The notes under the pieces: generated by a model | What the model was told of the DNA's origin: nothing | What the model saw: the letters and a program-made list of their open reading frames with translations, nothing else | Databases searched by the model: none | Made by a program: the position numbers and the translations under genes | Assembly: GCA_030603685.1 (NCBI GenBank) | Contig: JAUVXG010000003.1 | Coordinates: 1 to 64,000, forward strand | Length of the DNA: 64,000 bases | Reading direction: 5' to 3' | From: Pleomorphomonas sp. | GTDB lineage: Bacteria > Pseudomonadota > Alphaproteobacteria > Rhizobiales > Pleomorphomonadaceae | Shown: piece after piece, positions 2,028-28,517 of the stretch | Numbering within the stretch: position 1 is the stretch's first letter | Layout: each line of letters opens with the position of its first letter

Positions 2028-2085
2028 CGGGATCTGCGGCCGGATGACGGCATGAGGGGGCGGGTGCCCCCCATGCTCGCTCGCC

Positions 2086-3087: not shown

Positions 3088-3172
3088 CGTTGTTCTCCAT
3101 TTTTCCTCTCACATTTTCATACTAGGTCGCATAAAATGGAGCGTCGATTAATTTTTTGCGAAGTGGTACAAA

Positions 3173-3802: not shown

Positions 3803-3859
3803 ATGAGTCCTCGCGTCATATTAAGGTTTCGTGTACCATCTATTGCGACCGTCAACCGT

Positions 3860-3896
3860 CCCGGGCCGATGCTTGGCGCGCCGTGATCGGCCCGGG
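3860..3896. other. Stem-loop with perfect 11-bp arms (CCCGGGCCGAT/ATCGGCCCGGG) and 15-nt loop
   Basis: Read directly from sequence. Confidence 0.75.
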
Positions 3897-4000
3897 GACC
3901 TCGGCTCGCGAGGGAGCCCTGCTCGAATGGCTCCTCGTGCCCGGACGCCCTCCCTTCGGGGACTTCCCTTTCGTTTCAGCATCCGAGCCAGGAGGCTCAC

Positions 4001-4384
4001 ATGGCCTACGCCGTCGCGCTCATTCACGAAGAAGACAACCGCAGTTTTGGCGTGTCCTTCCCCGATTTCCCCGATTGCCATTCGGCGGCCACCAACCTCA
4101 ACGACGCGATCGCCCGGGCCGCCGTGGCGCTGGCTGCCCACGTGAAGAACCTCGACGAGCACAAGATGCCGATCCTGCGCACGCTCGACGACATACGCCG
4201 CACGCAGGAGCTTCACGAGGCGATCATCGCCGCCGTGCCGGTGGAGATGCCCGGCAAGCCGGTGCCGGTGCAGATCACGCTCAACGAGCACCTGCTCGCC
4301 GCGCTCGACCGCGCCGCAAGGACGGCCGGCGTCACCCGTTCGGAGAAGATCGCCGAGGCGATCCGCGCCAGTCTCAAGGTTTAA
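4001..4384 (+). CDS. HicB-family antitoxin-like protein (no HicA seen)
   Basis: HicB-like N-terminal fold (FGVSFPDFPDCHSAATNLNDAI) plus C-terminal ribbon-helix-helix-like region. Confidence 0.8.
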   Translation: MAYAVALIHEEDNRSFGVSFPDFPDCHSAATNLNDAIARAAVALAAHVKNLDEHKMPILRTLDDIRRTQELHEAIIAAVPVEMPGKPVPVQITLNEHLLAALDRAARTAGVTRSEKIAEAIRASLKV

Positions 4385-4431
4385 GACGCCCCCCATCAAG
4401 ACCCGCCGTCGTCATTGAGGAGGCCACGACC

Positions 4432-4725
4432 ATGCCACGCGATCTGTCGCTGCATCCCGGCATCGTCCTCAGGGATGAGTTCCTGAGGCCGATGGGGATC
4501 TCGGTCCAGGCTCTGGCCGAGGCGATCGGCGTCTCCAGCAGCCTGATGCAAGAGATCTGCAACGGCCGGCAGGGCATGTCGGCCAGCATCGCCCTGAGGC
4601 TCGGCCGCTACCTTGCCTTCGATCCGCAGTGGTTCATGACCATGCAGTCGAAATACGACCTGTCGGCCGCCGCCGAGGACATGGCCGAGGCGCTCGCCCG
4701 CATCCGGCCGTGCGAGGCGGCCTGA
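4432..4725 (+). CDS. HigA-family addiction-module antitoxin-like HTH protein (no HigB seen)
   Basis: HPGIVLRDEFLRPMGISVQALAEAIGVSSSLMQEICNGRQGMSASIALRLGRYL; XRE/HigA pattern; ATG at 4432 after a GGAGG-like SD. Confidence 0.85.
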   Translation: MPRDLSLHPGIVLRDEFLRPMGISVQALAEAIGVSSSLMQEICNGRQGMSASIALRLGRYLAFDPQWFMTMQSKYDLSAAAEDMAEALARIRPCEAA

Positions 4726-4819
4726 TCTCACATGTCTTCTTTGAGCGGGACTTGTTCAGCTCAAGGCGGGCATTTCAAGCGGGTTTCGGCCTGACCGGTC
4801 CCCCAGAAAGGTTTGTTCG

Positions 4820-5857
4820 GTGACGTTGCGTTCGCTCGCGTTTGTTCTTCTTGCCACGGCGGCCCTTTCGGGCTGCGCGCTGTTCGGCGACGACCTCAAG
4901 CGGTCGGAGCGGCCGATCCCGCCCAAGCTTCTGTCGGAGATGAACGCCAAGGGGCTGGGCGCCGCCTCGCCCATCCTGATCCGCGTGTTCAAGCAGGAGA
5001 GCGAGCTCGAACTGTGGAAGATGGACCGCACCGGCCGCTATGCGCTGCTCAAGACCTATCCGATCTGTCGCTGGTCGGGAAAGCTGGGTCCGAAGACGAC
5101 GGAGGGCGACCGACAGACGCCGGAGGGCTTCTACTCCATCGCCCAGCGCCAGATGAACCCGGACAGCCGCTACTACCTGTCCTTCAACCTCGGCTTCCCC
5201 AACCGGCTGGAGGCGGCGCTCGGCTATGAGGGCTCGGCGCTGATGATCCATGGCGCCTGCTCGTCGCGCGGCTGCTACGCGGTGACCGACAATGCCGCCT
5301 TCGAAATCTACGCCCTGGCGCGCGAGGCCTTCCGGGGCGGCCAGCCGTCCTTCCAGGTGGAGGCGCTGCCCTTCCGCATGACGCCGGCCAACCTGGCGCT
5401 GCATCGCAACGACCCCAACATGCCCTTCTGGCGCAACCTCAAGGAAGGCAGCGACGCCTTCGAGCTGACGCGCAAGGCGCCGCGCGTCGGCTATTGCGGC
5501 GGCCGCTACGTGTTCAACGCGGACAATGTCGACGGCTCCGTCGATCCGCTCGCGCCCTGTCCGCCGCTTCAGGTGGACGCCGAGCTGTCGGCCGCCGTCG
5601 CCGCCAAGGCGGCCAGGGACGATGCCGCCGCCGCCGCCATCGCCGCCGCCAACCCGGCTATGCCGGCCATGAGCTACGTCGACGGCGGCATGCACCCGGC
5701 CTTCCGCGCCATCCTGCAGGACAAGGGCGCCAAGAAGCTGTCCAAGATGACCTCGGAGAAGACGCCGGTCAGCCAGCCCGACGCGGCGCTGGCCGATCCC
5801 TACACGCCCGATCTGCCGGCGCGACTGACGGTCGGCGCCGGCGGACCGTCGTCCTGA
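4820..5857 (+). CDS. YkuD/ErfK-like murein L,D-transpeptidase family lipoprotein
   Basis: Lipobox-like LSGCALF; KLGPKTTEGDRQTPEGFYSI and MIHGACSSRGCYAVTD catalytic motif; GTG start. Confidence 0.85.
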   Translation: MTLRSLAFVLLATAALSGCALFGDDLKRSERPIPPKLLSEMNAKGLGAASPILIRVFKQESELELWKMDRTGRYALLKTYPICRWSGKLGPKTTEGDRQTPEGFYSIAQRQMNPDSRYYLSFNLGFPNRLEAALGYEGSALMIHGACSSRGCYAVTDNAAFEIYALAREAFRGGQPSFQVEALPFRMTPANLALHRNDPNMPFWRNLKEGSDAFELTRKAPRVGYCGGRYVFNADNVDGSVDPLAPCPPLQVDAELSAAVAAKAARDDAAAAAIAAANPAMPAMSYVDGGMHPAFRAILQDKGAKKLSKMTSEKTPVSQPDAALADPYTPDLPARLTVGAGGPSS

Positions 5858-5876
5858 CGTGGGCGAAAAAAGGCTC

Positions 5877-5907
5877 TTGCTCCTATAGTCGCTAGAGGTT
5901 GTAGCAC
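5877..5907 (+). promoter_or_regulatory. Putative MerR-family (CadR/PbrR/ZntR-like) operator-promoter for the P-type ATPase gene
   Basis: TTGCTCCTATAGTCGCTAGAGGTTGTAGCAC: -35-like TTGCTC with CTCCTATAG...CTAGAGG imperfect dyad in an over-long spacer. Confidence 0.65.
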
Positions 5908-5934
5908 TTCGATCATGAGAATCGGAGTGAAGTC

Positions 5935-8220
5935 ATGACCGAGGCAACCCAGCAGAACCGGTACCGCGTCGGCGGCATGGATTGCGCTTCCTGCGCGCAG
6001 AAGATCGATACGGCGGTGCGCCGCCTGCCGGGCGTCGAGGATGTTTCGGTGTCCGTCACCTCCGGCACCATGACCGTTCACCACAATGGCGACGAGGCGC
6101 TGGCGTCGGCCATCACCAAGCGCGTCTCCGGCCTCGGTTATCAGATCGCGCCGCTCGCGCCCGCCGCACCCAAGCCCGAGGCGGAAGAGAAGGCCTGCGG
6201 CTGCTGCCACCATGATCATGACCACGGCGATGATGATCATCACGGCCATGACCATGCGGGGCACGATCATGATGCTCACGGTCACGATCATGATCACGCC
6301 CACGATGCCGCCGACGAGGTTCCCGGTCTGCACGGGCACGACCATGGCCCGATGACCGGCCCGTGGTGGCAGTCGGCCAAGGGGCGGCTCACCATCATGG
6401 CCGGCGCGGCGCTGGCCGTCGCCTGGGGGCTCGGGCACCTATTCCCGGTCTATGACGCGTGGATCTTCGCGGTGGCGATGCTGGTCGGGCTGGTGCCGAT
6501 CGCCCGCCGCGCCATCATGGCCGCGATGGTCGGCACGCCCTTTTCCATCGAGATGCTGATGACCATCGCCGCCGTCGGCGCGGTGATCATCGGGGCGAGC
6601 GAGGAGGCGGCGACCGTCGTCTTCCTGTTCCTGATCGGCGAACTGCTGGAGGGCGTGGCGGCCGGCCGCGCCAGGGCGAGCATCCAGTCGCTCTCCAAGC
6701 TGGTGCCGAAGACGGCGCTGCTTGAAAAGGGTGGCAAGACGGCCGAGGTGCCGGCCGAGAGCCTCGCGGTCGGCGCCACCATTCTCGTCAGGCCCGGCGA
6801 TCGCATTCCCGCCGACGGCATTATCCTCTCGGGCGAAAGCTCGGTCGACGAGGCGCCGGTGACCGGCGAGAGCACGCCGGTGGTGAAGGGCGTCGATGCC
6901 TCCGTCTATGCCGGCACGGTGAACGGCGAGGCGGCGCTGCGCGTCAAGGTGACGGCGGCGGCGGCCGACAACACCATCGCCCGGGTGGTCAAGCTGGTCG
7001 AGGAGGCGCAGGAATCCAAGGCGCCGACCGAGCGCTTCATCGATCGCTTCTCGCGCTACTACACGCCCAGTGTCGTCGCCGTCGGCGCGCTGGTCGCCAT
7101 CGTGCCGCCGCTGCTGTTCGGCGGCGCCTGGGGCGAATGGATCTACAAGGGCCTCGCCATCCTGTTGATCGGCTGCCCCTGCGCGCTGGTCATCTCGACG
7201 CCGGCCGCCATCGCCGCCTCGCTGTCGTCGGGCGCCCGGCGCGGCCTGCTCTTGAAGGGCGGCGCCGTGCTGGAAGGCTTCGGCAAGGTGACCGCCGTGG
7301 CGCTCGACAAGACGGGAACGCTGACCGAGGGCAAGCCGGTGGTGACCGACGTCGTCGCCTACGGCCGGCCCGAGGCCGAGGTCGTTAGGCTCGCCGCCGC
7401 GCTGGAGACCGGCTCCAGCCATCCGCTCGCCAAGGCGATCCTCGACCGTGCCGCCAAGGATGGCGCCGACGTGCCGCCGGCCGATGACGCCAGGGCGCTG
7501 GGCGGCAAGGGCGTGACCGGCGTCGTCGACGGCGCGGAGATCCTGCTGGCCTCGCCCAGGGCGGCTGGCGAGCGGGTTGTCCTCAACGACGAGCAGTCGC
7601 AGCGCATCGCCGCCTTCAACGACGAGGGCAAGACGGTGTCGGTGCTGGTGACTGGCAACGCGGTGGCCGGCATCCTCGCCATGCGCGACGAGCCGCGCGC
7701 CGACGCGACGGCCGGCCTGAAGGCGCTGAACGACCACGGCATCCGCACGGTGATGCTGACCGGCGACAACCGCCGCACCGCCGAGGCCATCGGCCGGCAG
7801 CTGGGCATCGAGGTGCGGGCCGAGCTGCTGCCCGAGGACAAGCAGCGCATCGTCGGCGAGCTCAAGGCAGAGGGCCTCAAGGTGGCCAAGGTGGGCGACG
7901 GCATCAACGACGCCCCGGCGCTCGCCGCCGCCGACGTCGGCATCGCCATGGGCGGCGGCACCGACGTGGCGCTGGAAACTGCCGACGCCGCCAGCCTGCA
8001 CGGCCGCGTCGGCGATATCGCCGCCATGATCGCCCTGTCGAAGCGCACCATGGCCAACATCGGCCAGAACATCACCATCGCCCTCGGCCTCAAGGCGGTG
8101 TTCCTGGTCACCACCATCGCCGGCATCACCGGCCTCTGGCCCGCCATCCTCGCCGACACCGGCGCGACGGTTCTGGTGACGATGAACGCGTTGAGGCTGC
8201 TGGCTCCGGCGAAGGGGTGA
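5935..8220 (+). CDS. zntA: Heavy-metal translocating P1B-type ATPase (Zn/Cd/Pb type)
   Basis: HMA domain GGMDCASCAQKID; His/Asp-rich linker; [28 protein letters not shown]. Confidence 0.93.
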   Translation: MTEATQQNRYRVGGMDCASCAQKIDTAVRRLPGVEDVSVSVTSGTMTVHHNGDEALASAITKRVSGLGYQIAPLAPAAPKPEAEEKACGCCHHDHDHGDDDHHGHDHAGHDHDAHGHDHDHAHDAADEVPGLHGHDHGPMTGPWWQSAKGRLTIMAGAALAVAWGLGHLFPVYDAWIFAVAMLVGLVPIARRAIMAAMVGTPFSIEMLMTIAAVGAVIIGASEEAATVVFLFLIGELLEGVAAGRARASIQSLSKLVPKTALLEKGGKTAEVPAESLAVGATILVRPGDRIPADGIILSGESSVDEAPVTGESTPVVKGVDASVYAGTVNGEAALRVKVTAAAADNTIARVVKLVEEAQESKAPTERFIDRFSRYYTPSVVAVGALVAIVPPLLFGGAWGEWIYKGLAILLIGCPCALVISTPAAIAASLSSGARRGLLLKGGAVLEGFGKVTAVALDKTGTLTEGKPVVTDVVAYGRPEAEVVRLAAALETGSSHPLAKAILDRAAKDGADVPPADDARALGGKGVTGVVDGAEILLASPRAAGERVVLNDEQSQRIAAFNDEGKTVSVLVTGNAVAGILAMRDEPRADATAGLKALNDHGIRTVMLTGDNRRTAEAIGRQLGIEVRAELLPEDKQRIVGELKAEGLKVAKVGDGINDAPALAAADVGIAMGGGTDVALETADAASLHGRVGDIAAMIALSKRTMANIGQNITIALGLKAVFLVTTIAGITGLWPAILADTGATVLVTMNALRLLAPAKG

Positions 8221-8236
8221 TCGGGAAAGCCGGCTG

Positions 8237-8647
8237 TCAGGCCTCCCCCGTCGCCAGCTCGAAGCCCTCGTCGATCCAGCCGGTGAGGCCGCCGGCCATG
8301 ATCTTGACGGGGCGGCCGAGGTCGGCGAGGCGGAGGGCGCCGCGGGCGGCGCCGTTGCAGTGCGGGCCGGCGCAATAGGTGACGAATAGCGTCTCCTCCG
8401 GCCACTCCGTGAGCTTGGAGCGGATGATCTTGCCGTGCGGCAGGTTGATGGCGCCGGGCACGTGCCCCTTGGCGTAGAGGGCGGGGCCGCGCACGTCGAG
8501 CAGCACGAAGTCGGCACCCTTCGACAGCGCCTCATGCACGTCGTAGCAGTCGGTTTCGAAGGTGAATTCGGCGGCGAAGTGCTCGCGGGCGATGTCGCTC
8601 GGCGCGGCGGGAATGGCGGCAACGGCTGAAGGCATGGGGCTCTCCAT
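8237..8647 (-). CDS. Rhodanese-like domain protein
   Basis: VLLDVRGPALYAKGHVPGAINLPHGKI and YCAGPHCNGAARGALRLADLG; start MESPMP assumed inside a longer ORF. Confidence 0.85.
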   Translation of the reverse strand: MESPMPSAVAAIPAAPSDIAREHFAAEFTFETDCYDVHEALSKGADFVLLDVRGPALYAKGHVPGAINLPHGKIIRSKLTEWPEETLFVTYCAGPHCNGAARGALRLADLGRPVKIMAGGLTGWIDEGFELATGEA

Positions 8648-8723
8648 GGGGTTTCTATGGCCCGAGGGTGCCGCCACGGCGGCGGGCTTGCAATTGGCGC
8701 GGATGACATTGTACGTAAAGATC

Positions 8724-9740
8724 ATGCCAGACGACATGTCCCCCCCGGCAACTCAAGGACCGCTCGCCGTGGCGCTGCTCTACGACGGGCTCTGCACCTT
8801 CGAGTTCGGCATCGTCGCCGAGGTGTTCGGCCTCTATCGGCCGGAGATGGGGCCGGGCTGGTATCGCTTCCGGAGCGCGGCCATCGAGCCCGGCCCGCTT
8901 CGGGCGCACGGCGGTTTCACCCTCACGCCCGACGAGGGGCCGGAGATGATCGATCGGGCCGACATCATCGTCGTGCCCGGCTGGAAGGGCGCCGACGTGC
9001 CGGTGCCGGATGCGCTGTGCGCGCGGCTCAGGGCGGCGCATGGGCGCGGCGCGCGGCTCGTTTCCATCTGCTCGGGCGCCTTCGTGCTGGCGGCGACCGG
9101 CCTTCTCGACGGCGCCACCCTATCCACCCACTGGCGCTATGCAGAGGCGCTGCGGCGGCGCTTTCCGGCGGTGACGGTCGATGCCGCCTCGCTCTATCGC
9201 GAGCATGACGGCGTGTTCACCTCGGCCGGCAGCGCGGCGGGCATCGACCTCCTCATCGAGATCGTGCGGCGGGATTTCGGGGCGGAGGCCGCCAACTCGG
9301 TGGCGCGGCGGCTGGTGGTGCCAGCCCATCGCTCCGGCGGGCAGGCGCAGTTCCTCGAGCGGCCGGTGCCGGCCCGCCCCACCGGCGAGGTGGCGCCGCT
9401 GCTCGACCGGATGCGCGAGACGCTTGGCCGCGACTGGACCACCGAGGCGATGGCCGAGGCGTGCCGGATGAGCCTTCGCACCTTCCTGCGCCGCTTCCAG
9501 GAAGCCACCGGCATGAGCCCCGGCGACTGGCTGATCTCCGAGCGCGTCGAGGCGGCGAAAAGCCTGCTCTCCTCGGGCGATCTCGCCATCGACAGCGTCG
9601 CCGCCGCCGTCGGCTTCGGCAGCGCCCACGCGCTCCGCCATCATTTCCGCAGGAAGGTGGGTCTCACGCCGACGGAATATCGGTCGCGGTTCATGAAGGT
9701 GGAGCGAGGGGTGGGCGAGGTCAGGCCTGTTTCCGTCTAG
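8724..9740 (+). CDS. ftrA: GlxA/FtrA-type AraC family regulator (DJ-1/PfpI domain + HTH)
   Basis: ALLYDGLCTFEFGIVAEVFGL, VSICSGAFVLAATGLLDGATLSTHWRYAEAL, C-terminal AraC HTH; in-frame ATG at 8724; divergent to rhodanese gene. Confidence 0.85.
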   Translation: MPDDMSPPATQGPLAVALLYDGLCTFEFGIVAEVFGLYRPEMGPGWYRFRSAAIEPGPLRAHGGFTLTPDEGPEMIDRADIIVVPGWKGADVPVPDALCARLRAAHGRGARLVSICSGAFVLAATGLLDGATLSTHWRYAEALRRRFPAVTVDAASLYREHDGVFTSAGSAAGIDLLIEIVRRDFGAEAANSVARRLVVPAHRSGGQAQFLERPVPARPTGEVAPLLDRMRETLGRDWTTEAMAEACRMSLRTFLRRFQEATGMSPGDWLISERVEAAKSLLSSGDLAIDSVAAAVGFGSAHALRHHFRRKVGLTPTEYRSRFMKVERGVGEVRPVSV

Positions 9741-10470
9741 CCGGCGCCGGCAAGGACACGGCTTCGGATGGCGCTTGCGAGTCCGGCACCGCCGCGCCGA
9801 GGCGGTGCGCCACCAGTTCCTGAAGGCGCCAGAGGTTGCGGTCGTGGATGCCGAGCTGTTCGAGGTGGGCGACGGTGTTGAAGAGATACTCGGCGCAGGA
9901 TCCGACATGGCCGCAGGCGCGCGCCAGCGTGTCGGCCACCTGTTCCAGGGACTGCTTCTCGACGACATAGCGCCCGGTCGGGCCGACCCAGAAGCACAGC
10001 GTCCGGACCTTCCGCCCGTCGATCAGGCAAGTGATCCAGCGCGCGAAGCGCAGGTTTTCCGGGGTGTCCACCTCGCGCCGCACCAGTTCGGTCAACGCCG
10101 CCAGCCGGTCCTCGTGGCGGACGCGGAAGGCGACGCCCTTGCAGTTGCCGCCGCGCTGCAGGGCCATCATCAGGCCCGGCCGGGACGGGGTTCCGCGCCA
10201 TCGCCGCAGCGGGATGCAAAACGAGCGATGCCAGCCGTGGGCGACGGCGAGCCGCGTTTCCTCGGGCTCGAAAACCGGCTTCCAGATCAGCGAGCCATAG
10301 GCGAAGATCCAGAGCTCGTCGCCCGCTTCGGCGTCGAACCGCGCGGCCGCGGCGGCAAACGCTTCGTCGCCGAGCAGCACCTCGTCCGCTTCCGGCCCAG
10401 GGTCGATCTCGGTTCTCAGGGTTCTGGCGACCAGGTCCTCCGTGAGCGTCATCCGGCGGGCAGGCGGCAT
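9721..10470 (-). CDS. chaC: ChaC-like gamma-glutamylcyclotransferase
   Basis: LWIFAYGSLIWKPVFEPEETRLAVAHGWHRSFCI; start at 10470 preceded by GAGGAG. Confidence 0.9.
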   Translation of the reverse strand: MPPARRMTLTEDLVARTLRTEIDPGPEADEVLLGDEAFAAAAARFDAEAGDELWIFAYGSLIWKPVFEPEETRLAVAHGWHRSFCIPLRRWRGTPSRPGLMMALQRGGNCKGVAFRVRHEDRLAALTELVRREVDTPENLRFARWITCLIDGRKVRTLCFWVGPTGRYVVEKQSLEQVADTLARACGHVGSCAEYLFNTVAHLEQLGIHDRNLWRLQELVAHRLGAAVPDSQAPSEAVSLPAPARRKQA

Positions 10471-10608
10471 GCGGTCTCCTCGTTGCGCGACGGCCCGGTG
10501 GCGCGCCCGTCGCTCCACCAGGTCGATGGCTGCCAATCAGACCCGTTTGCGCGCCGGAGCGCAACGATGGATTTGCCCTTCGCCGCGAAAGGCTTTCCCT
10601 CCTCGCCG

Positions 10609-10821
10609 GGTGGCTCAGCTGGCCGGGTAGCCGGCGGCGGTGAGGGCGGCGCGCAGGGCGGCCTCGCTGGCCGGGCTTTCGACGCTGATCCGGTGGGCGG
10701 CGAGGTCGGCCTCGACCTTGGTGTCGGCGTCGACGCCCTGAAGCGCCTTGGTGACCGAGCGGGCGCAGCCGCCGCAGGCCATGTTGGGAATGGTGAACTG
10801 GTACATCGCGAGGCCTCCTTG
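10609..10821. repeat. Left copy of about 213-bp direct repeat containing copZ
   Basis: Hand alignment to 18668-18880 gives 8 mismatches and no gaps. Confidence 0.93.
10615..10806 (-). CDS. copZ: Copper chaperone, HMA domain (CopZ-like), left copy
   Basis: MYQFTIPNMACGGCARSVTKALQGVDADTKVE; one residue (T/A) different from right copy. Confidence 0.9.
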   Translation of the reverse strand: MYQFTIPNMACGGCARSVTKALQGVDADTKVEADLAAHRISVESPASEAALRAALTAAGYPAS

Positions 10822-10954
10822 TGTTGGCTGCGTTTAGGTCAGGTTGTTTGGATGCAAAAACCGGTTGCAAACCTCGCCCATAGGTAAATGAAGCCGGTTC
10901 CCCCTAGGGTTGATATGCCTTACTAAGGTTGTCGAAATTTGGGGGGACTTTTGC

Positions 10955-13027
10955 GTGACGTCGCTGAGCCGCCCTGCAAACATGGGTGTTACCTTGGAAC
11001 CGGTTGTTTTTCTGGGACTCGTAGCTCGTGACTGGATACTGACCCTCGCTCGCCTGTTAACGGAAGAGTATGTGCCGGGTTTGGTCGCAGCGCTTCTCCT
11101 CGTGGCGCTCGCTATTACGGCTTTGTTGTTTGCCGTCGAAGCTGGGAGACGGTGGTTTGCCCTATGTTGGCTTTCTCGGAAAATTATGGAAGTCGACAGT
11201 GCCGCTGGGCTGAAAGAGAAGGTCGACGAAATCACCGAAAGCGCGCAGCAGCAGCAGGGTAAGGCCGCTCGATCGGTTGCGTTCGCTTGGTCGGAGTATC
11301 GCGAGACCTTTGTTGATCACGACGAGAACGGTGTTTCTGTGCTGCGAAACGCGGTTCGTCCCAGTGCATTCTTCAATGTTGAGGATCTGAGGTTTGGGCC
11401 CGGTTTTTGGCGCGTAGTTCCTAGCCTGTTTGTGCCGTCTGGCCTCTTCCTGACCTTCCTTGGCCTTATATCGGCTCTATCATCTATGGATCTGACGACT
11501 CCGGAAAAGGTGACGGACTCGCTGAAAACTCTTCTTACGATTGCGTCGGCGAAGTTCATTATGTCGTTGACCGGTCTCGCATGTTCTATTCTCTTCACGA
11601 TTGTGCTGCGCATTGGCCTCGGTCGGGTTGAGGCGGCGATCCACCGTTTGTGCGGCGCCATAGAAGACCGGCTGACCTATGTCAGCCTTGAAGCTCTTGC
11701 CGTAGAACAGCTTCGGACAATCCGTGAGCAACGCGACAATTTTCGGCAGCTCGGCATGGAAATGGTTGCCGAGCTTGGGCGTCCGCTGCGCGAGGAACTG
11801 CCAAACGCCATCTCGCAGTCCATTCAGACCGCGATGGGGCCGTTGTTCAAACAAGTCAGCGAACTCGGTACCGACAATATGGGTAACATGGTCAAGGATC
11901 TGTCGGCTCGTTTCAGCGACGATGTGGGGCGGGCATTGTCGCAGGCGAGCGAGCGACTCCTGGCCGCAGGCGACAAGATTACTCAACTCTCTGAACGTAT
12001 GGACGGCAGCTCTGGGCGAATGGGCGAGCAGATGGAGGCGGCCGTTACGCGCATGGCTCAGGCTGTGGATGACCTTCGCGGTGCCATGAGCGCAACTGCA
12101 GAAACAGCCAGCGGTGCTTTGAACGCAGGTACGGATCGCCTGCTGTCCGTCATGTCCGATACGTTGGAAGGCATCCAAAACAATACGGCGATGGGTGCTG
12201 CCTCCATGCAGGAGGCGGCCCGCGAAATGCGCGCGGCGGCGGAAGGCTTCCGTAAGGAACTCGAAACGGCTGCCGCAACCGGAAGCGAGGCGGCAAAAGG
12301 CCGCATGGAGGCTGCGGCTCGGCAGGCAAGCGAGGCCATTGAAGGTACGGCCCAGACGCTTCTTACTTCGTTCGGTGCAACGTCGGCCGAGATCGCCCGT
12401 ATGGCCGACGAGCTGACGACCAAGTCGGCGAATGAGTTGCTGTTGCCGTTGGAACGGACGAGCGAGCGGTTTGCCGGACTGATCGCCAGCCTCGCGGATG
12501 GCACGGCTGGCATGAACCGCCTAACCGACGGCATGCGCTCGACGGCGGAAAGCGTAGAGCGAGCGTCGGGGCAGTTCAAGCAGTCGTCTCAGGATCTTGC
12601 CAGCGCCGCCGGACCAATTCGTGGGAGCGTGGAAGCGATCGAGAGCTCCATGCGACTGCTTGGTCAGAGTACGGAGGCTGCCTCAACCACTGTGGTTCGT
12701 TCTGCCGAGCAGACCGCACAAAGCGCGGCAGACATACTGGCCGCCGCAATGGAAGTGCTCGGTGGCCACAAGAATGCCCTGGAGACGAGTTTGTCCGGCG
12801 CGATTGCCATGCTGGACCGGCTCAAGGAGCAGGGTACACGCTTCGATGAGATCGACGAGAAGCTTGGTGTTGCCTTTGATGCCTATACCAACCGTGTGGA
12901 CGCGGCCGTCAGGACATTGTTCGATCACGTCAAGAAGATGCAGGAAGAGCTCGCTCCGGCGATCGGAACGTTGCGGACTGTGGTGGAAAGTGCCGAACAG
13001 TTCATTCCGCAGAGTGGGAGGCGCTGA
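10955..13027 (+). CDS. zorA: ZorA-like: MotA/TolQ/ExbB-type membrane motor protein with long alpha-helical tail
   Basis: N-terminal TM helices ([76 protein letters not shown]) then about 430 residues of Ala/Glu/Gln-rich helix; GGGGGA SD 8 nt before in-frame GTG 10955 (longer ORF opens at ATG 10910). Confidence 0.9.
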   Translation: MTSLSRPANMGVTLEPVVFLGLVARDWILTLARLLTEEYVPGLVAALLLVALAITALLFAVEAGRRWFALCWLSRKIMEVDSAAGLKEKVDEITESAQQQQGKAARSVAFAWSEYRETFVDHDENGVSVLRNAVRPSAFFNVEDLRFGPGFWRVVPSLFVPSGLFLTFLGLISALSSMDLTTPEKVTDSLKTLLTIASAKFIMSLTGLACSILFTIVLRIGLGRVEAAIHRLCGAIEDRLTYVSLEALAVEQLRTIREQRDNFRQLGMEMVAELGRPLREELPNAISQSIQTAMGPLFKQVSELGTDNMGNMVKDLSARFSDDVGRALSQASERLLAAGDKITQLSERMDGSSGRMGEQMEAAVTRMAQAVDDLRGAMSATAETASGALNAGTDRLLSVMSDTLEGIQNNTAMGAASMQEAAREMRAAAEGFRKELETAAATGSEAAKGRMEAAARQASEAIEGTAQTLLTSFGATSAEIARMADELTTKSANELLLPLERTSERFAGLIASLADGTAGMNRLTDGMRSTAESVERASGQFKQSSQDLASAAGPIRGSVEAIESSMRLLGQSTEAASTTVVRSAEQTAQSAADILAAAMEVLGGHKNALETSLSGAIAMLDRLKEQGTRFDEIDEKLGVAFDAYTNRVDAAVRTLFDHVKKMQEELAPAIGTLRTVVESAEQFIPQSGRR

Positions 13028-14004
13028 TGCGCGCCAGCAGCCGGCGCGCTGAGCGCCACGAAGAGGAGGAAGAGTCCGCCTTCGTGTCGATGACCGACAT
13101 GACCGTCAGCTTTCTGTTCATCGTTATGATCCTGCTGGCCTTTTTTGCTTCTCAACTGCACAACAAGGACACAGTGCCCAAAAGTGCCTACGAGGAGGTG
13201 GTCCGGGAGCGCGATGCTGCCGAAGCGAAAGTGAAAGATCTCCAGCAGCACATCGACCAATTGAAGACGCGCGTTAGTGCTCTTGAGCAGGACCTTGCCC
13301 ACCGGGATGAAGAGATAGCCAAGCTCAAAGCGCAAATTGCCGAGCTGGAGCGACAGCTCGCAGCAATGAAGCCAGAGGACCGTCTTGAAACCTACCTATC
13401 GGCAATCGCCGATCAGCGTCGCCAGATGCTGGAGACGTTGCAGAACCAGCTGAAGATTGATTTTCCCGATTTGCAAGTGATCGTCAGCGCCGAGATGGAT
13501 GCGCTGCGTTTCAAGGGCGATGGGCTATTCCAGAGTGGTTCGAGCGTGTTGGCGCCTGACAAGCAGCGGATCGTCGAGGCTATTGCTGGCAGACTGGATG
13601 AGTTGTTGCCGTGCTTCACTTTTGGTCCAAAGGCAGCTTGGCGCGCTGAGTGCAACCGTGCTGGAGCCGTGATCGAAGCCATACAGATTGAAGGACATAC
13701 GGATTCGACGGGTGACGACAACGCCAACCTGACGCTGTCGACCAACCGCGCTAACGCAACCTTCTTTGCCATGGCTGCGAACCGGCCGGATCTGATTGGC
13801 TTTCTCAATACGCGCAGCCAGCCGGTGTTGTCAGTCGCCGGCTACGGGAAAATGCGGCCTGTCGACGACAACTCAACCAAGGAAGGGCGCGCGACCAACC
13901 GCCGCATCGATCTTCGGATCATCATGTATACGCCTCGATCTGTTGAGGAAATCGAGACGATCCGCGACGAACTCCAGAAGGGTATTGGAGGCAGCGGCCA
14001 ATGA
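13027..14004 (+). CDS. zorB: ZorB-like: MotB/OmpA-type stator and peptidoglycan-binding protein
   Basis: Single TM with membrane-entry Asp (VSMTDMTVSFLFIVMILLAFFASQL), coiled coil, OmpA-like region (IEGHTDSTGDDNANLTLSTNRANA...RATNRRIDLRIIM); TGATG overlap with zorA. Confidence 0.93.
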   Translation: MRASSRRAERHEEEEESAFVSMTDMTVSFLFIVMILLAFFASQLHNKDTVPKSAYEEVVRERDAAEAKVKDLQQHIDQLKTRVSALEQDLAHRDEEIAKLKAQIAELERQLAAMKPEDRLETYLSAIADQRRQMLETLQNQLKIDFPDLQVIVSAEMDALRFKGDGLFQSGSSVLAPDKQRIVEAIAGRLDELLPCFTFGPKAAWRAECNRAGAVIEAIQIEGHTDSTGDDNANLTLSTNRANATFFAMAANRPDLIGFLNTRSQPVLSVAGYGKMRPVDDNSTKEGRATNRRIDLRIIMYTPRSVEEIETIRDELQKGIGGSGQ

Positions 14005-15398
14005 CCACAAACTGGTCCGTAACCGACGGAACGGTTGAACAGCCGCGACAACGTTGGAAGGTGGCGTCGCCTGAGTTCGATGCCCCCCGTTTACCAGACC
14101 CCACACCGTTGCGCGCAGCCAAACAGGCGGTACTCGATCGTTGGCCGGATAAGCTACAGCCCCCGAAAGTCGATTTGGAACGGTTGGTATCCGAGATGCT
14201 TGATCGGGTGAACCGTTGGGATTTCAGTGGCTGGACTATTGCAAAGACACTCGACGCAGCACATGCCTGCTTTGATTCCGAAAGACGAGAGAGGGCGGAT
14301 CTACTGCCTTTGCGGGAATTCTACCGTGACGAGATCATCGCATCGACGAGTGAGAGTTTCCTCAATGGCATGATGTTGGTCTACATCAGCAATTTTGTTC
14401 CTCAAGGGGCTCATACATGCCTGCTCGGGCGTGCACTTTTGTCGGCACGCGACCGACTGGGAGCGCGCTGGGCGAACTTGCTGAGGGCAGTTCCGGACAT
14501 CTTCGATGGACAGTCCGCGCCCCGTCAGATTGCCTACATGATGACGAAGATGCCCGTTCCCTGGATGGACCTGCAACAGATCGGCATTCGCTCGCCGCAC
14601 GCCCCTGGTTTGATGGACCACGCCCATTACGTCTTTGTCGCTTTGGTTTCGCCTGGGTTGCGTAATCAAGGCGAAGTGGACAAGCTGTTGGCTTGGCTGA
14701 AGCCCGAAGGGCAGCAGGTGCGGTCATCCGGCGGCGCCGAAGCCATACAGGCGCTACTGGGGCCGTGGACCAGCAGCGAGCCGCCGGACGCGTTGCGAAA
14801 GAGCTTGGTCGAGCGCCTCACTGATCTCTTCGGAGATCCTCGCATGCACCCAGGGGGAGCGTGGGCGGGAGTCTCACGCGAAGCGCTAGACGTTTTCCTT
14901 CGCTGGATCACCGGCGCAAACATCGACTTCTTCATGGATGTTCTATCGCAAGTCGAAAGCAGCCGCATGTGGGCGCCGCGTCGGCGGTTCTGGATGCAGC
15001 TCTACAAGGAGGGGCGGATCGATGCCGCCTGGGTCGCCTTCTCCGCAAAGGGGTCGCGGTTGGCTCAAAGACTGATGGCACAGCGAGGACGGCGTGGCGG
15101 GCTCGAATTTGGAGAGCAGCTTGCCCGGTTGGATACGTCGCTGCTCATCTTGAAGAGTGGCAACAAGATCATTGTCGAGGGTTCGCATAGCTATCGCATC
15201 CATATCTTCCGTGAGGGAGAGCCGGAAGCGCCTCGGCTATACCTGCGGGGCTATGATTGCGACGAGATCATGCGGAAATCGGATCGGCGCGCCCGTACTC
15301 TAGCCAAGGCACATAACTGCTTGTGTTCTAGAGAGAATTATCCGCCGCGCTGCCCAGGATCCTGCAATTGGCAGGATTGGGTCAATGAACACATATAG
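14001..15398 (+). CDS. zorC: ZorC-like protein (EH_signature-type)
   Basis: 465 aa, ATGA overlap with zorB, between OmpA-like and SNF2 genes as in type I Zorya; SSRMWAPRRRFWMQLYKEGRIDAAWV region; C-terminal Cys cluster. Confidence 0.85.
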   Translation: MTTNWSVTDGTVEQPRQRWKVASPEFDAPRLPDPTPLRAAKQAVLDRWPDKLQPPKVDLERLVSEMLDRVNRWDFSGWTIAKTLDAAHACFDSERRERADLLPLREFYRDEIIASTSESFLNGMMLVYISNFVPQGAHTCLLGRALLSARDRLGARWANLLRAVPDIFDGQSAPRQIAYMMTKMPVPWMDLQQIGIRSPHAPGLMDHAHYVFVALVSPGLRNQGEVDKLLAWLKPEGQQVRSSGGAEAIQALLGPWTSSEPPDALRKSLVERLTDLFGDPRMHPGGAWAGVSREALDVFLRWITGANIDFFMDVLSQVESSRMWAPRRRFWMQLYKEGRIDAAWVAFSAKGSRLAQRLMAQRGRRGGLEFGEQLARLDTSLLILKSGNKIIVEGSHSYRIHIFREGEPEAPRLYLRGYDCDEIMRKSDRRARTLAKAHNCLCSRENYPPRCPGSCNWQDWVNEHI

Positions 15399-15407
15399 GG
15401 GGCTGCG

Positions 15408-18400
15408 ATGGCCTTTGACTTTTCCTTCGATTCGACTGGTGTGACCCTGTCGTTGAAATCCGAAAAGCAGGGCCTGCTTGCCGGTTTGCTTGGGCGTCAT
15501 CGAGCGCGTGACCTGACAAGGCTTTCGCCCGACGATAGGGCTTTGCTCGTTGCCGTTGCTGATCTGAAGGCGCTGGCGGCCGAAAGAGCAGATGCGGGAT
15601 TGCAAATAGGTACCCAGCAGATACGTCTTGCCCATGGGCTGGTTGCGGCAATGGATGGCGCATCTGCTGCGGTTCTTGGCCTCCCTCCTCTGGTGGATCT
15701 GACGCTCTCGACTGACGTCGAGGGTATCGTCGGATCTCCGAACTTCCGTTTGCGTTACCAGTGGATGCGAAATGGGCAATCCGTATCCTGCCGGCGAACC
15801 GGAGCCATTCTGACTGTGGGCGGCAACCCGAAACGCCTGCCGCTTTGGATGATGGAGGCACTGGAAATTGCCGACGGCTTTGCGCCTAGCGATAACCTAG
15901 AAACTCATTGGGCAGCGCTGGGGCGGTTTCGCGAGGCACTCGATCCAGGAGTGTCCGTCGGCGCACCAACACAAGCCGCTCGATCCTCCATGTCTGATTT
16001 TCTGGCTGGGCTGCAGGTCAGAGTCGCAGACCGGTTCTCCATCTCAACTGACGAGACAGGAGATAGCTTCGAAGTTGTGCCGTTTTCCGGCCGGCGTCTT
16101 GAGCGCGAGGGGTACGACGTCGACGCAGTCGTTCCCGAGGCAACAAGCGAGTTGGAAGGCGCCGACCTTGATTTGTTCCAGGCTCGGGTGCGTGACCGGG
16201 GCGCGTTGCCGGCCTATCGACTCGGCACCGGCAGTTATCTTGTCATAGACAAATCTGCTGCCCCAGCACTCGAAGTGATGGCGCGTAAGCGACTGGCGCC
16301 GGTAGAGGAGCGCCGCGCCTTCATTCGCAATCCCCGGGCTGACATTGCTACGGCGATGGAGGCGTTTCTAAGAGAACGCGGCGAGCTGGATGGTTTATCA
16401 CCTGACGCCGAGGAAGAAGCGATTGAGGCGGCGGCGGTCCCGCTCTTTGTTGAAACCGAGGAGTACTCGGAACGGGTGAAGGGTATCAAGGTCTTCGAGA
16501 AAGCAAATCTCGATATTGGGCCAGGCAGCGGAACCACTTGGCTTCCGGAGGTCTTTTCTCAGGCAGTACTGGAGGCAATCGCAAATGCCTCCATCGCTGA
16601 GGTGCGTCAACTGAGCCAACAGGTCGGCGAAGCCGTCGAAAAGGGAGAAACCTCTGTTGATTTTGGCGACGTTGAGGTGCCTGCCGGGCCAGAAGCTAAG
16701 GCCGCGCTCGACGCTGAAGTGCAGCGGCGAGAACTTGATGGCGAAGGAGCGAATGTTGAGGAAGAAGTCGCACCGCGACGAGGACCAATCGTGCTTGATG
16801 CCGAGACAAATTTCGACGATCTTACATACCGAGCAGCTGTGAAACCTCGACAGTCTGCGATCCCGGACGATGTCCCCACGTCAATCAAGACGCCCCTAAA
16901 AGCTCACCAAATCGAGAGCTTCCACTGGCAGGTCGCCGCCTGGAAGGCGGGATTGCCTGGTGTCCTCAATGCCGACGAGCAGGGTCTCGGCAAGACGCTG
17001 CAGACCATTGCTTTCATCGTATGGCTCAAGGCGCAAATGGCGAAGGCAGGTGGTGCCTGTGCTCGCCCGGTTCTGGTCGTCGCGCCAACTTCGCTGTTGC
17101 GAAACTGGGAGAACGAGGTTGAGCAACACGTCGAGCGCCCCGGCTTCGGTTCGATCGTTCGTCTGTACGGTGCTTCCGTTGCTGCGCGGAAGGCCGTTGG
17201 CGCTCGTGGCAAGGACACTGACCGCGGTGAGCAGACGCTCGACCTTAGTTCACTGCAAGAGGCCATCTCTGATGGGCGGGGACATCGCTATTGGGTGCTA
17301 ACCACTTACACGACGTTGACCAACTATCAGCATTCGTTGGCTCGCATACCGTTTTCAGCCGGAGTGTTCGACGAGATTCAGGCGATCAAGAACCCGGATA
17401 GTCTCCGGGCTATCGCGGCTGAGGGCATGAACCTCGACTTTCGCATTGGCCTGACGGGAACGCCTATCGAAAACAGCACGACCGACCTTTGGGCGATCAT
17501 GGACAAAATCGCTCCGGGGTGGCTTGGAAGTCTTCGAGAGTTTCGAGAGAGGTATTCCACGCCTGATGAGACCAACATGCACGAGCTTTATGAGCGGGTT
17601 TTTCAGGAGCAGGGTGGCCTCCCGCCGGTGGCCCTTCGACGCCTAAAGGATGATGTTGCGCGCGATCTGCCCGCCAAGTCGCGGCGACTGCATCCACGCC
17701 TCATGCCAAATCGACAGGCTTCCGTCTATGAGGAAGCGCGTGTCAAGCTTGCAGAAGGCGGCCTCGGGGCAGCCCTAAAAATGCTGCATCATATCCGAGC
17801 GGTGTCGGTCCATCCGGCGCTCGACGCTGATGATGTGGGTGATGACTTCGTCCAGGCATCGGCTCGCCTCAAAGCGACTTTTGACGTCCTGCGCCGGATC
17901 AAGGTAGCCAACGAGAGGGCGCTGGTATTCATCGAACATCGGCAAATGCAGTATCGCTTTATTGAATGGGTAAAGGCCGAGTTCGGCCTAATGCATGTCG
18001 ACCTTATCAATGGCGATACGCCTATTCCTCAGCGGCAGGCGATTGTCGATCGTTTCCAAAGCCATGGCGGTGCCCCCGGTTTTGACCTTTTGGTCCTTGG
18101 TCCCAAAGCAGCTGGTACGGGTCTGACGCTGACTGCAGCGACGCACGTCATCCATTTGTCGCGTTGGTGGAATCCGGCAGTCGAAGAGCAGTGCAACGAT
18201 CGTGTTCATCGCATAGGGCAGACCCAGCCCGTCAGCATACACCTGCCGATGGCTATTCACCCCGGTTATCGGGAAAACTCGTTTGATTGCCTTTTGCACA
18301 GCCTGATGCAACGCAAGCGTCGGCTTGCCGCCGCTGCTCTCTGGCCAATGGGGGACGGGGATGGCGATGTCGCCGCGTTACAACAAGGCCTCGCCACAGA

Positions 18401-18509
18401 GCAGGGGAACAGCACAGCTGATCCTGTCAGGACCGCAATCAGAGAAATGTTCCTTCGGGACGGTTTGCCGCCGGCTCCAGTGGATGAGGACGGCTCGATT
18501 CCGATTTAG
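15408..18509 (+). CDS. zorD: ZorD-like SNF2-family helicase/ATPase
   Basis: NADEQGLGKTLQTIAF (Walker A), VFDEIQAIKNP (motif II), GLTGTPIENS (III), DRVHRIGQTQPVSIHLP (VI); 1033 aa; starts 9 nt after zorC. Confidence 0.93.
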   Translation: MAFDFSFDSTGVTLSLKSEKQGLLAGLLGRHRARDLTRLSPDDRALLVAVADLKALAAERADAGLQIGTQQIRLAHGLVAAMDGASAAVLGLPPLVDLTLSTDVEGIVGSPNFRLRYQWMRNGQSVSCRRTGAILTVGGNPKRLPLWMMEALEIADGFAPSDNLETHWAALGRFREALDPGVSVGAPTQAARSSMSDFLAGLQVRVADRFSISTDETGDSFEVVPFSGRRLEREGYDVDAVVPEATSELEGADLDLFQARVRDRGALPAYRLGTGSYLVIDKSAAPALEVMARKRLAPVEERRAFIRNPRADIATAMEAFLRERGELDGLSPDAEEEAIEAAAVPLFVETEEYSERVKGIKVFEKANLDIGPGSGTTWLPEVFSQAVLEAIANASIAEVRQLSQQVGEAVEKGETSVDFGDVEVPAGPEAKAALDAEVQRRELDGEGANVEEEVAPRRGPIVLDAETNFDDLTYRAAVKPRQSAIPDDVPTSIKTPLKAHQIESFHWQVAAWKAGLPGVLNADEQGLGKTLQTIAFIVWLKAQMAKAGGACARPVLVVAPTSLLRNWENEVEQHVERPGFGSIVRLYGASVAARKAVGARGKDTDRGEQTLDLSSLQEAISDGRGHRYWVLTTYTTLTNYQHSLARIPFSAGVFDEIQAIKNPDSLRAIAAEGMNLDFRIGLTGTPIENSTTDLWAIMDKIAPGWLGSLREFRERYSTPDETNMHELYERVFQEQGGLPPVALRRLKDDVARDLPAKSRRLHPRLMPNRQASVYEEARVKLAEGGLGAALKMLHHIRAVSVHPALDADDVGDDFVQASARLKATFDVLRRIKVANERALVFIEHRQMQYRFIEWVKAEFGLMHVDLINGDTPIPQRQAIVDRFQSHGGAPGFDLLVLGPKAAGTGLTLTAATHVIHLSRWWNPAVEEQCNDRVHRIGQTQPVSIHLPMAIHPGYRENSFDCLLHSLMQRKRRLAAAALWPMGDGDGDVAALQQGLATEQGNSTADPVRTAIREMFLRDGLPPAPVDEDGSIPI

Positions 18510-18513
18510 CGCA

Positions 18514-18566
18514 GCCTTAGCAAAAGTGGACGCCGGCTTTGCGTCCGGAGCTGCGCGAAAAAACTA
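18514..18566 (+). repeat. Dispersed repeat family 1 (AGCAAAAGTGGAAACCGGTTTTGCGTCCGGAGTTGCGTGAAAA-type)
   Basis: Matches copies at 23427, 37616, 52213(-), 56764(-), 59228 by eye. Confidence 0.8.
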
Positions 18567-18667
18567 GTTAGGGCATGTTGGCGAACCAAGGCTCGCCGAA
18601 CATGCTGTAGGTGATCAGGCTGGACACGGCTTTACGTGGCCCGATGTTTGACGATCCATCAGCCGTT

Positions 18668-18880
18668 GGTGGCTCAGCTGGCCGGGTAGCCGGCGGCGGT
18701 GAGGGCGGCGCGCAGGGCGGCTTCGCTGGCCGGGCTTTCGACGCTGATCCGGTGGGCGGCCAGATCCGCCTCGACCTTGGCGTCGGCATCGACGCCCTGA
18801 AGCGCCTTGGTGACCGAGCGGGCGCAGCCGCCGCAGGCCATGTTGGGAATGGTGAACTGGTACATCGTGGGGCCTCCTTG
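18668..18880. repeat. Right copy of about 213-bp direct repeat containing copZ
   Basis: Hand alignment to 10609-10821. Confidence 0.93.
18674..18865 (-). CDS. copZ: Copper chaperone, HMA domain (CopZ-like), right copy
   Basis: MYQFTIPNMACGGCARSVTKALQGVDADAKVE; adjacent to copA. Confidence 0.92.
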   Translation of the reverse strand: MYQFTIPNMACGGCARSVTKALQGVDADAKVEADLAAHRISVESPASEAALRAALTAAGYPAS

Positions 18881-18895
18881 GGGTTGAATGATCGT

Positions 18896-18926
18896 GAGAT
18901 AGGGCTTCCAAGCGTTGGAAGGTCAA
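18896..18926 (-). promoter_or_regulatory. CueR-type operator-promoter driving right copZ
   Basis: Minus strand TTGACCTTCCAACGCTTGGAAGCCCTATCTC: -35 TTGACC, -10 TATCTC, 19-bp spacer with dyad. Confidence 0.88.
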
Positions 18927-18973
18927 GGGGCGTGACTTGCCGTTGGCTTTTGTCGGCCCCATGTGAAAAGGGC

Positions 18974-19004
18974 TTGACCTTCCCATGGTTGGAAGCCTCA
19001 TCTT
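18974..19004 (+). promoter_or_regulatory. CueR-type operator-promoter driving copA
   Basis: TTGACCTTCCCATGGTTGGAAGCCTCATCTT: -35 TTGACC, -10 CATCTT, 19-bp spacer with ACCTTCC...GGAAG dyad. Confidence 0.9.
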
Positions 19005-19040
19005 CCGGGCATGATACGTTCGGAACAGAAGGAAGCGGCC

Positions 19041-21536
19041 ATGAATGCCCCCGCTCGCACCGCCTCGCCATCGTCCACCCAGTTCTCGCTGCCCATCGAG
19101 GGCATGACCTGCGCCTCCTGCGTCGGCCGCGTCGAGCGCGTGCTCAAGGCGGTGCCCGGCGTCGAGGCGGTGGCGGTCAACCTGGCGACGGAGCGGGCGA
19201 GCATCACCACCAACGGCGCGGTCGAACGCGCGAAACTGGTCGATGCCGTGGAGATGGCCGGCTATGGCGTGCCGGCGGCCCCGGCGACGGAGTCCCGCGT
19301 CGAGCTGACTGTGGAGGGCATGACGTGCGCCTCTTGCGTCGGCCGGGTCGAGCGGGCGCTCAAGGCGGTGCCGGGCGTTGACGAGGCCATCGTCAATCTG
19401 GCGACCGAGCGTGCAACCATTCGCGGCACGGCCGAGGCGGCGGCGCTGGTCGAGGCGGTGGAGACGGCCGGCTACGACGCCCGGCTGATCGAGGCGGCGA
19501 ATGTCGCCGACAGCCTCGCCGAGGACGCCGAGCGGGCCGACCGGAAGGACGCCGAGCGGCGGACGCTGGCCCGCGACCTGATCGTCGCGGCGGTGCTGAC
19601 GGCGCCGGTGTTCGTCATGGAAATGGGCTCGCACCTGTTCTCCGGCATGCACATGCTGATCGCCGACACCCTGGGCATGCAGGGCAGCTGGTATTTGCAA
19701 TTCGTGCTGACGACGCTGGTGATGTTCGGCCCCGGCCGGCGCTTCTACGTGAAGGGGCTGCCGGCGCTCTGGCGTCTGGCGCCCGACATGAACTCGCTGG
19801 TGGCGGTGGGGTCGCTCGCCGCCTACGGCTACTCGCTGGTGGCGACCTTCGCCCCCGGCCTGCTGCCGGCCGGCACGCTCAACGTCTATTACGAGGCGGC
19901 GGCGGTGATCGTCACGCTGATCCTGCTCGGCCGCTTGCTGGAAGCGCGCGCCAAGGGCCGCACCTCCGAGGCGATCCGCCGGCTGGTCGGCCTTCAGGTG
20001 AAGACGGCGCACGTGCGCCGCGACGGCAAGGTGACCGATCTCCCCATCGCTTCGGTGCTGGCTGGCGACGTCGTCGAGGTGCGGCCCGGCGAGCGTGTGC
20101 CCGTCGATGGCGAGGTGATCGACGGCGACAGCTTCGTCGACGAGTCGATGATCACCGGCGAGCCGATCCCGGTGGCCAAGACGGCCGGCGGCAAGGTGGT
20201 GGGCGGCACCGTCAACCAGACCGGCGCCTTCGCCTTCCGCGCCACGGCGGTGGGCGGCGACACCGTGCTGTCGCAGATCATCCGCATGGTCGAGGAGGCG
20301 CAGGGCTCCAAGCTGCCGATCCAGGCCATGGTCGACCGCATCACCATGTGGTTCGTGCCGGCAGTGTTCGCCGTGGCGGCGCTGACCTTCGCTGTCTGGC
20401 TGATGCTGGCGCCGTCGTCGCCCTTGACCTTCGCGCTGATCAACGCGGTGGCGGTACTGATCATCGCCTGCCCCTGCGCCATGGGGCTGGCGACGCCGAC
20501 CTCGATCATGGTCGGCACCGGTCGGGGCGCCGAGCTCGGCGTGCTGTTCCGCCGCGGAGAGGCCTTGCAGCTTCTGAGGGACGCCAAGGTGGTGGCCGTC
20601 GACAAGACCGGCACGCTGACCGAGGGCAAGCCGGCGCTGACCGACCTGGAATTGGCCGAGGGCTTCGACCGCCCGGCGGTGCTGGCGCTGGTGGCGGCGG
20701 CCGAGAGCAAGTCCGCGCATCCGATCGCCCGCGCCATCGTCGCGGCGGCCGAGGCCGAGGGGCTGGAGCTGCCTGAGGTGACCGACTTCGGCTCGGTGAC
20801 CGGCCTGGGCGTGACGGCGGTGGCCGGTGGCCAGCGCGTCCAGCTGGGCGCCGACCGCTACATGGCCCAGCTCGGCTTGGACGTGTCGGGCTTTGCCGAC
20901 GTGGCCAGGCGGCTGGCCGGCGAGGGCAAGTCGCCGCTTTATGCGGCCATCGACGGCAAGCTGGCGGCGGTCGTCGCCGTGGCGGACCCGGTCAAGGCGT
21001 CGACGCCGGCCGCCATCGCAGCGCTGCACGAGCTTGGCCTGAAGGTGGCGATGATCACCGGCGACAATGCGCTGACGGCCAAGGCCATCGCCGCCCGCCT
21101 CGGCATCGACGAGGTGGTGGCCGAGGTATTGCCGGACGGCAAGGTGGAGGCGGTGCGCCGGCTCAAGGCCGAGGGTACGCTGGCCTTCGTCGGCGACGGC
21201 ATCAACGACGCGCCGGCGCTGGCCGAGGCCGATGTCGGCCTCGCCATCGGCACCGGCACCGATGTCGCCATCGAGGCGGCCGACGTGGTGCTGATGTCGG
21301 GCAGCCTGCAGGGCGTGCCCAACGCCATCGCGCTCTCCAAGGCGACCATCGGCAACATTCGCCAGAACCTGTTCTGGGCCTTCGCCTACAACACGGCGCT
21401 GATCCCGCTGGCGGCCGGCGCGCTCTACCCGTCGCTCGGCATCCTGCTGTCGCCGGTGTTCGCGGCCGGCGCCATGGCGCTCTCCAGCGTGTTCGTGCTG
21501 GGCAATGCCCTCCGGCTGCGCCGCTTCGCGGTTTGA
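19041..21536 (+). CDS. copA: Copper-translocating P1B-type ATPase
   Basis: Two [16 protein letters not shown] domains; [42 protein letters not shown]. Confidence 0.96.
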
Positions 21537-21633
21537 GATCGCTTCCGTCGGGATTCGACCTTTCGGATCGGATGCTGACGGAGGCGGAAGCGCCCGACCG
21601 GAACGCGTATGAGATCTGACAAGGAGACGGCAG

Positions 21634-22074
21634 ATGAATATCGGTGAGGCGGCCAAGGCCTCCGGCGTGTCGGCCAAGATGATCCGTTACTACGAGCAGA
21701 CCGGGCTGATCCCCAAGGCCGACCGGCGGCAGTCGGGCTATCGCGACTATTCGGACACCGACGTGCACATGCTGCGCTTCATCCGCCGGTCGCGCGACCT
21801 TGGCTTTTCCGTCGCCGAGATTGCCGAACTGCTCGACCTCTGGCGTGACGAGGGGCGGGCCAGCGCCGAGGTGAAGCGGCTGGCGCAGAACCACATCGAC
21901 GATCTCAACAAGCGGATCGCCGCCATGCAGGACATGACCAACACGCTGTCCCAACTGGTGTGCGCCTGCCACGGCGACGACCGGCCGCAGTGCCCGATCC
22001 TCGAACGGCTGAGCAACGATGCCGACGACGAGGACCTGTCGATCCAGCCGCGCAGAGGGGCGGTGGCGGGGTAG
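21634..22074 (+). CDS. cueR: MerR-family copper-responsive regulator
   Basis: MNIGEAAKASGVSAKMIRYYEQTGLIP; C-terminal CACHGDDRPQCPIL metal-binding motif. Confidence 0.95.
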   Translation: MNIGEAAKASGVSAKMIRYYEQTGLIPKADRRQSGYRDYSDTDVHMLRFIRRSRDLGFSVAEIAELLDLWRDEGRASAEVKRLAQNHIDDLNKRIAAMQDMTNTLSQLVCACHGDDRPQCPILERLSNDADDEDLSIQPRRGAVAG

Positions 22075-28187: not shown

Positions 28188-28191
28188 GACC

Positions 28192-28503: not shown

Positions 28504-28517
28504 CTTTGCCTCGGCAC

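Follow-up and report, generated by a model that had tools for sequence, protein, structure and literature searches.

A type I Zorya operon bracketed by two copZ-like genes in a Pleomorphomonas genome

Published work on type I Zorya supports a model in which an ion-driven ZorA5B2 motor senses a disturbance of the envelope through the binding of ZorB to the peptidoglycan, and the cytoplasmic tail of the motor recruits ZorC and ZorD to act on DNA (PMC11890865; PMC12904381). Opinions in the literature differ as to the outcome, which is seen either as direct defence or as a protection of the whole population. In the stretch of 64,000 nucleotides from a draft genome of Pleomorphomonas sp. that was analysed here (contig JAUVXG010000003.1, positions 1 to 64,000; hereafter the window), four genes resembling such a system lie between two copies of a copZ-like gene. 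The locus raises the questions of whether these genes form a complete type I Zorya system and how they came to be placed at this site.

A first, sequence-only reading had proposed four tightly packed genes with short junctions. All four reading frames were open in the order zorA-zorB-zorC-zorD at the positions listed in Table 1, and the junctions were seen as described: the zorA stop and the zorB start share a TGATG (13025-13029), zorB and zorC overlap in an ATGA, and zorC and zorD are spaced by 9 nt. For zorA a start at GTG 10955 is possible, but the ATG at 10982 is probably the start, since the resulting length of 681 residues equals that of ZorA in the congener G007, where the upstream start is missing.

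Table 1. Positions of the operon, the bracketing repeats and the neighbouring elements in the window
Feature	Position	Strand	Description
Left 213-bp direct repeat	10609..10821		copZ at 10615-10806 (-); native 3' flank, foreign 5' flank
Foreign leader	10822..10981	+	between left copZ and zorA
zorA	10982..13027	+	681 aa; MotA/TolQ-like subunit with long helical cytoplasmic tail
zorB	13027..14004	+	325 aa; MotB-like, Asp24, OmpA peptidoglycan-binding domain
zorC	14001..15398	+	465 aa; EH_Signature protein
zorD	15408..18509	+	1033 aa; SNF2-type helicase/translocase
Two-hairpin intergenic repeat	18519..18611		directly 3' of zorD
Right 213-bp direct repeat	18668..18880		copZ at 18674-18865 (-); native 5' flank (copA side), foreign 3' flank

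The four proteins were then compared with the PADLOC profiles. ZorA matched the type I model ZorA1 (PDLC00600) with 908.8 bits over residues 16-689, ZorB matched ZorB1 (PDLC00612) with 404.8 bits, ZorC matched ZorC1 (PDLC00619) with 513 bits and ZorD matched ZorD1 (PDLC00629) with 1332 bits. With E-values from 5.8e-122 to 0 and near full-length coverage, the four matches are far beyond chance and place the genes inside the ZorA-D families, which bears out the initial assignment as a complete type I zorABCD set. The Pfam models were in line with this: ZorB matched OmpA, ZorC matched EH_Signature (PF15611) with 186.3 bits at a cut-off of 27.5, and ZorD matched SNF2 and Helicase_C, with a weak match to ResIII. 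Pfam recognised no nuclease domain in ZorD; the description of the PADLOC ZorD1 model reads 'Mrr-like nuclease'.

With the equivalog models of NCBIfam, ZorA scored 51.3 bits against ZorA1 (NF041794, cut-off 750) and ZorD 313.5 bits against ZorD (NF041790, cut-off 1500). Both proteins fall below the cut-offs, so the operon is far from the laboratory-tested systems and belongs to a type I subclade other than the group described by these two models. PADLOC already models this subclade.

Solved structures were searched with the sequences and with predicted folds. ZorA aligned with E. coli ZorA (8QYK/8QYD) with a single-sequence E-value of 1e-9, ZorB found the type I ZorB of Shewanella (8VVN) as a solved relative by sequence, and the best sequence match of ZorD in the PDB was E. 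coli ZorD (8QY7, E 4.5e-74). ZorC found zero matches in the PDB by single-sequence search and its profile matched 8R68 weakly (E 0.18). The AlphaFold model of ZorC (pLDDT 87.4) had a sole PDB fold match at E<=0.001, which was E. coli ZorC (8R68, E 3.9e-6, probability 1.00); the second-best match had an E-value of 0.28. On the basis of the predicted fold, the link to E. coli ZorC is settled. The sequence-only reading had named a lack of ZorC similarity at this gene as the point that would speak against it, and the similarity was found in the PADLOC profile, the Pfam family and the fold. The ZorD model (pLDDT 78.4) had a pTM of 0.54, which makes its domain placement uncertain, and its best fold match was 8QY7 with an E-value of 2.2e-47, about 20 orders of magnitude ahead, over 1052 alignment columns.

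The folds of ZorA and ZorB are of the MotA/MotB type, and ZorB is also matched by generic models of the OmpA family, so the first two genes could in principle encode a TolQR/MotAB-like envelope machine without a defence role that has a helicase gene downstream by chance. We regard this as extremely improbable. The EH_Signature gene and the ZorD-type SNF2 gene stand in a fixed operon order in many genomes, the top structural matches are ZorC and ZorD themselves, the type I PADLOC models match all four proteins, and the copy of the operon in G007 adjoins a type III methyltransferase gene.

The residues known to be important in other systems were inspected in the alignments. In 8VVN, D24 of ZorB is the residue of the ion pathway and is needed for defence (PMC11890865). 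Mutations of ZorB at H186, L199, R203, R254 and R259 abolish peptidoglycan binding and defence (PMC11890865). The D24 of the window ZorB aligns without gaps with D24 of 8VVN and is invariant across 23 ZorB proteins; it is the residue that the sequence-only reading had named for mutation. Likewise, H224, L237, R241, R292 and R297 have the same spacing as the five peptidoglycan-binding residues and are invariant in the 23 aligned proteins. T158 and S195 of ZorA align with T147 and S184 of EcZorA, which have a functional role there. In ZorC, E393 is E or D in all 24 aligned proteins and H438 is invariant in the 24; both fit the EH signature, whose E and H residues have a functional role in ZorC. 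ZorD has the motifs GLGKT at 526-530 and DEIQ at 655-658.

When the genes were compared with the G007 operon, no internal stops were found and dN/dS was 0.073 for zorA, 0.077 for zorB, 0.088 for zorC and 0.059 for zorD, values that are rough because dS is close to saturation. They point clearly to purifying selection on zorABCD.

All parts that the type I model calls for are present here. By analogy to other type I systems, ZorA5B2 would be an ion-driven motor in the inner membrane that is anchored to the peptidoglycan by ZorB. When a phage injects its DNA and disturbs the envelope, ZorB would grip the peptidoglycan and the ion flow past Asp24 would open. The ZorA tail would then recruit or activate two effectors, the SNF2 translocase/nuclease ZorD and ZorC, and these would disable the DNA near the injection site. 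Taken together, our results make it very probable that 10982-18509 is a complete and selectively maintained type I Zorya anti-phage system that came in with about 8 kb of DNA including one copZ. As its subclade is far from the tested systems, this intact operon helps to ask which features of the motor and the effectors are universal.

How the block arrived was addressed with its flanks. Two 213-bp direct repeats with a mutual identity of 96% bracket the operon, and each contains a complete copZ-like gene for a 63-aa HMA protein on the minus strand (PF00403, 51.1 bits for the right copy). The native neighbours, as named from their sequences, are a P-type ATPase gene (5935-8220) and an AraC-type regulator gene on the left and copA (about 19041-21536) and a CueR/MerR-like regulator gene (21634-22074) on the right, and the operon appears to sit within copper-resistance genes. 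In the congeners G005, G006 and G013 matching flanks of 88-95% identity were found with a single copZ and without Zorya. In G006 the window segments 2085-10821 (93.5%) and 18664-21538 (94.9%) map adjacent to each other and overlap at one copZ only; in G005 and G013 the flanks map in the same way with 88-94% identity. Because three congeners with the same flanks have one copZ and no Zorya, we conclude that the operon was cleanly acquired with the precision of the repeats. The G+C content of 10822-18667 is 0.582, that of the rest of the window is 0.664, and the lowest value among sampled 7.8-kb blocks outside the insert was 0.634. The low G+C and the horizontal acquisition had both been proposed before; the first was seen again, and the second now has the empty sites behind it beyond composition alone.

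Of the 8 sites that distinguish the two copZ copies, four lie towards the 3' end and four towards the 5' end. At the 3' sites the left copy has the alleles of G006, the nearest congener, and the right copy does not; at the 5' sites the right copy is identical to G005, G006 and G013 and the left copy to none of them. The switch from the native to the foreign alleles falls into an interval of 14 bp (10708-10722). Such a reciprocal switch would be left by one crossover in which a donor copZ recombined with the resident copy. We take it as supportive rather than conclusive, since the sites are few and G005 shares three of the four 3' alleles of the right copy, so that ordinary polymorphism may explain part of the pattern.

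The draft genome consists of 296 contigs, and short-read assemblies can go wrong at repeats of 213 bp, so a separate replicon carrying copZ and Zorya might have been joined to the chromosome falsely through the shared copZ. However, eight sites tell the copies apart, and a single contig contains the operon together with the native flanks to its left and right. As the identical stretch at the switch is 13 bp, too short for the usual k-mers, an assembly artefact is very unlikely.

The insert showed no recognisable gene for an integrase or transposase; apart from zorABCD, a single short dispersed repeat was all that was recognised between the copZ copies. We propose that a block of about 8 kb bearing one copZ entered the chromosome, most likely by a single crossover between the donor copZ and the resident copZ, which would have left a copZ on both sides. 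The 213 bp of homology would in turn allow an exact loss of the operon by RecA-dependent recombination. The reading of the locus as a recombinase-free cassette bracketed by copZ, which entered through a single copZ crossover, can be lost exactly and uses an ordinary gene as its attachment site, is put forward tentatively, at somewhat less than an even chance. A copZ tandem duplication might instead have come first, and the Zorya block might have been inserted later by end joining or by a since-lost transposon, with the repeats playing no part as mediators. Any insertion between duplicated genes yields the same topology, the copies are separated by eight sites only and natural copZ alleles vary among the congeners. 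Against this order of events, two copZ genes were found at the site in none of the congeners examined, and the reciprocal allele switch would be unexpected. A second copZ that had seemed present in G011 was rejected, as contig ends overlap in copZ there and the locus reads as one native copZ. In addition, the native promoter region of the copA side is missing from the left copy, as is the native 3' flank from the right copy, and a plain tandem duplication would therefore require extra losses precisely at the repeat edges. We consider the prior duplication unlikely, although it deserves to be kept in mind beside the single crossover. The locus offers a clean before-and-after comparison of how a defence operon can enter a chromosome when its insert has no recognised recombinase. 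An exact loss through direct-repeat recombination becomes testable by PCR.

The source of a block entering by such a crossover was searched among plasmids and relatives. Megablast of 10300-19100 gave no match among 72,556 plasmids and hence no donor plasmid; tblastn on the plasmids found only distant ZorC and ZorD proteins in Zymomonas, Azospirillum and others. Neither the plasmids nor 24 other Zorya-type loci showed a donor with copZ beside Zorya. The dispersed repeat 3' of zorD, about 93 nt long, occurs in 12 of the 14 genomes of the genus and in 0 of 46 outside, and its fold has 31 consensus pairs with compensatory changes in 8. It had no match in Rfam and resembles the rhizobial RIME elements. 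Since this repeat is confined to the genus in our sample and the identity between the copZ copies is as high as 96%, the block probably came from a congener. Further copies of the repeat were seen at 52187-52271 on the minus strand and in L085-L104, and partial copies near 23438 and 56766. The leader in front of zorA, where the operon promoter is presumably placed, was matched in none of the 13 other genomes from the genus. A simple scan showed no sigma-70-like promoter in it. The scan for promoters and terminators was set aside as its counts were about those expected from shuffled sequence.

To place the operon among its relatives, EH_Signature was followed as the marker of ZorC and was present in about 8% of the genomes sampled from the order (31 of 398), which makes the operon an ordinary member of its family. 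This accords with the earlier statement that the family is already described. The Zorya system itself is of a known kind, and the manner of its insertion is the only unusual part; a limited literature search found no published Zorya insertion bracketed by copZ. Most of the 24 loci that were inspected have their genes in the zorABCD order as well, and the ZorC proteins form two groups, with 30-75% and 18-25% identity to the window ZorC.

Among the 13 congeners only G007 also has a Zorya. Its operon (L024:6228-13845) shares 75-81% protein identity across all four genes and the same junctions, and the gene lengths match except for a longer ZorB of 353 aa. However, it stands at another locus, without copZ and alongside a UvrD-like gene and the type III methyltransferase gene (807 bits). 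The Zymomonas mobilis plasmid pZA1001 (NC_013356.1) has the same four-gene order and a ZorD with 49.6% identity, but here the operon adjoins genes for a GIY-YIG nuclease, a toxin-antitoxin and partition, and copper genes are absent from the stretch. The type I systems of E. coli (8QYD/8QYK, 8R68, 8QY7), Shewanella sp. ANA-3 (8VVN) and Serratia marcescens ATCC 274 have the same four families in the same order. With the known type I systems the window operon shares the long ZorA tail, the ZorB D24 and peptidoglycan-binding residues, the EH fold of ZorC and the SNF2 core of ZorD, whereas its proteins are distant in sequence from those of E. coli, as the single-sequence searches with ZorC and ZorA had indicated. 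Type II and III Zorya have the ZorA/ZorB motor core in common with it, but the operon has neither the ZorE HNH nuclease nor ZorF/ZorG; its ZorA reached 909 bits with the type I model of PADLOC and 36.5 and 28.4 bits with ZorA2 and ZorA3, respectively.

The idea that Zorya is generally linked to copper genes was rejected, as a copZ match was nearby in 0 of the 24 other Zorya-type loci and P1B-ATPases were seen at L076 of genome G322 only. There, a distant type I Zorya operon (5811-18041) is followed by genes for a UvrD-like helicase and a copper-type P1B-ATPase, and it is the only other sampled Zorya locus close to metal-resistance genes. At L078 (G325:C1:1195000-1214500) an EH_Signature protein is encoded with a distant ZorD-like helicase of 1242 aa, and a single-sequence search detected no ZorA or ZorB; this is possibly a module of the ZorC/ZorD type without a motor, or a very diverged Zorya. 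Partial EH_Signature matches covering only profile positions 72-269 were found in two genomes of one genus (G196:C18:1739-2359 and G363:C1:169197-169817), the first within an open frame of 1339 aa, and appear to represent another protein architecture that uses part of the ZorC fold. In the window itself, a HicB-like antitoxin gene (PF15919) lies at 4001-4384 on the plus strand, and a HipA-like kinase gene (HipA_C, Couple_hipA) with an upstream helix-turn-helix gene at 26838-28560 on the minus strand is predicted to form a toxin-antitoxin pair of the HipBA type.
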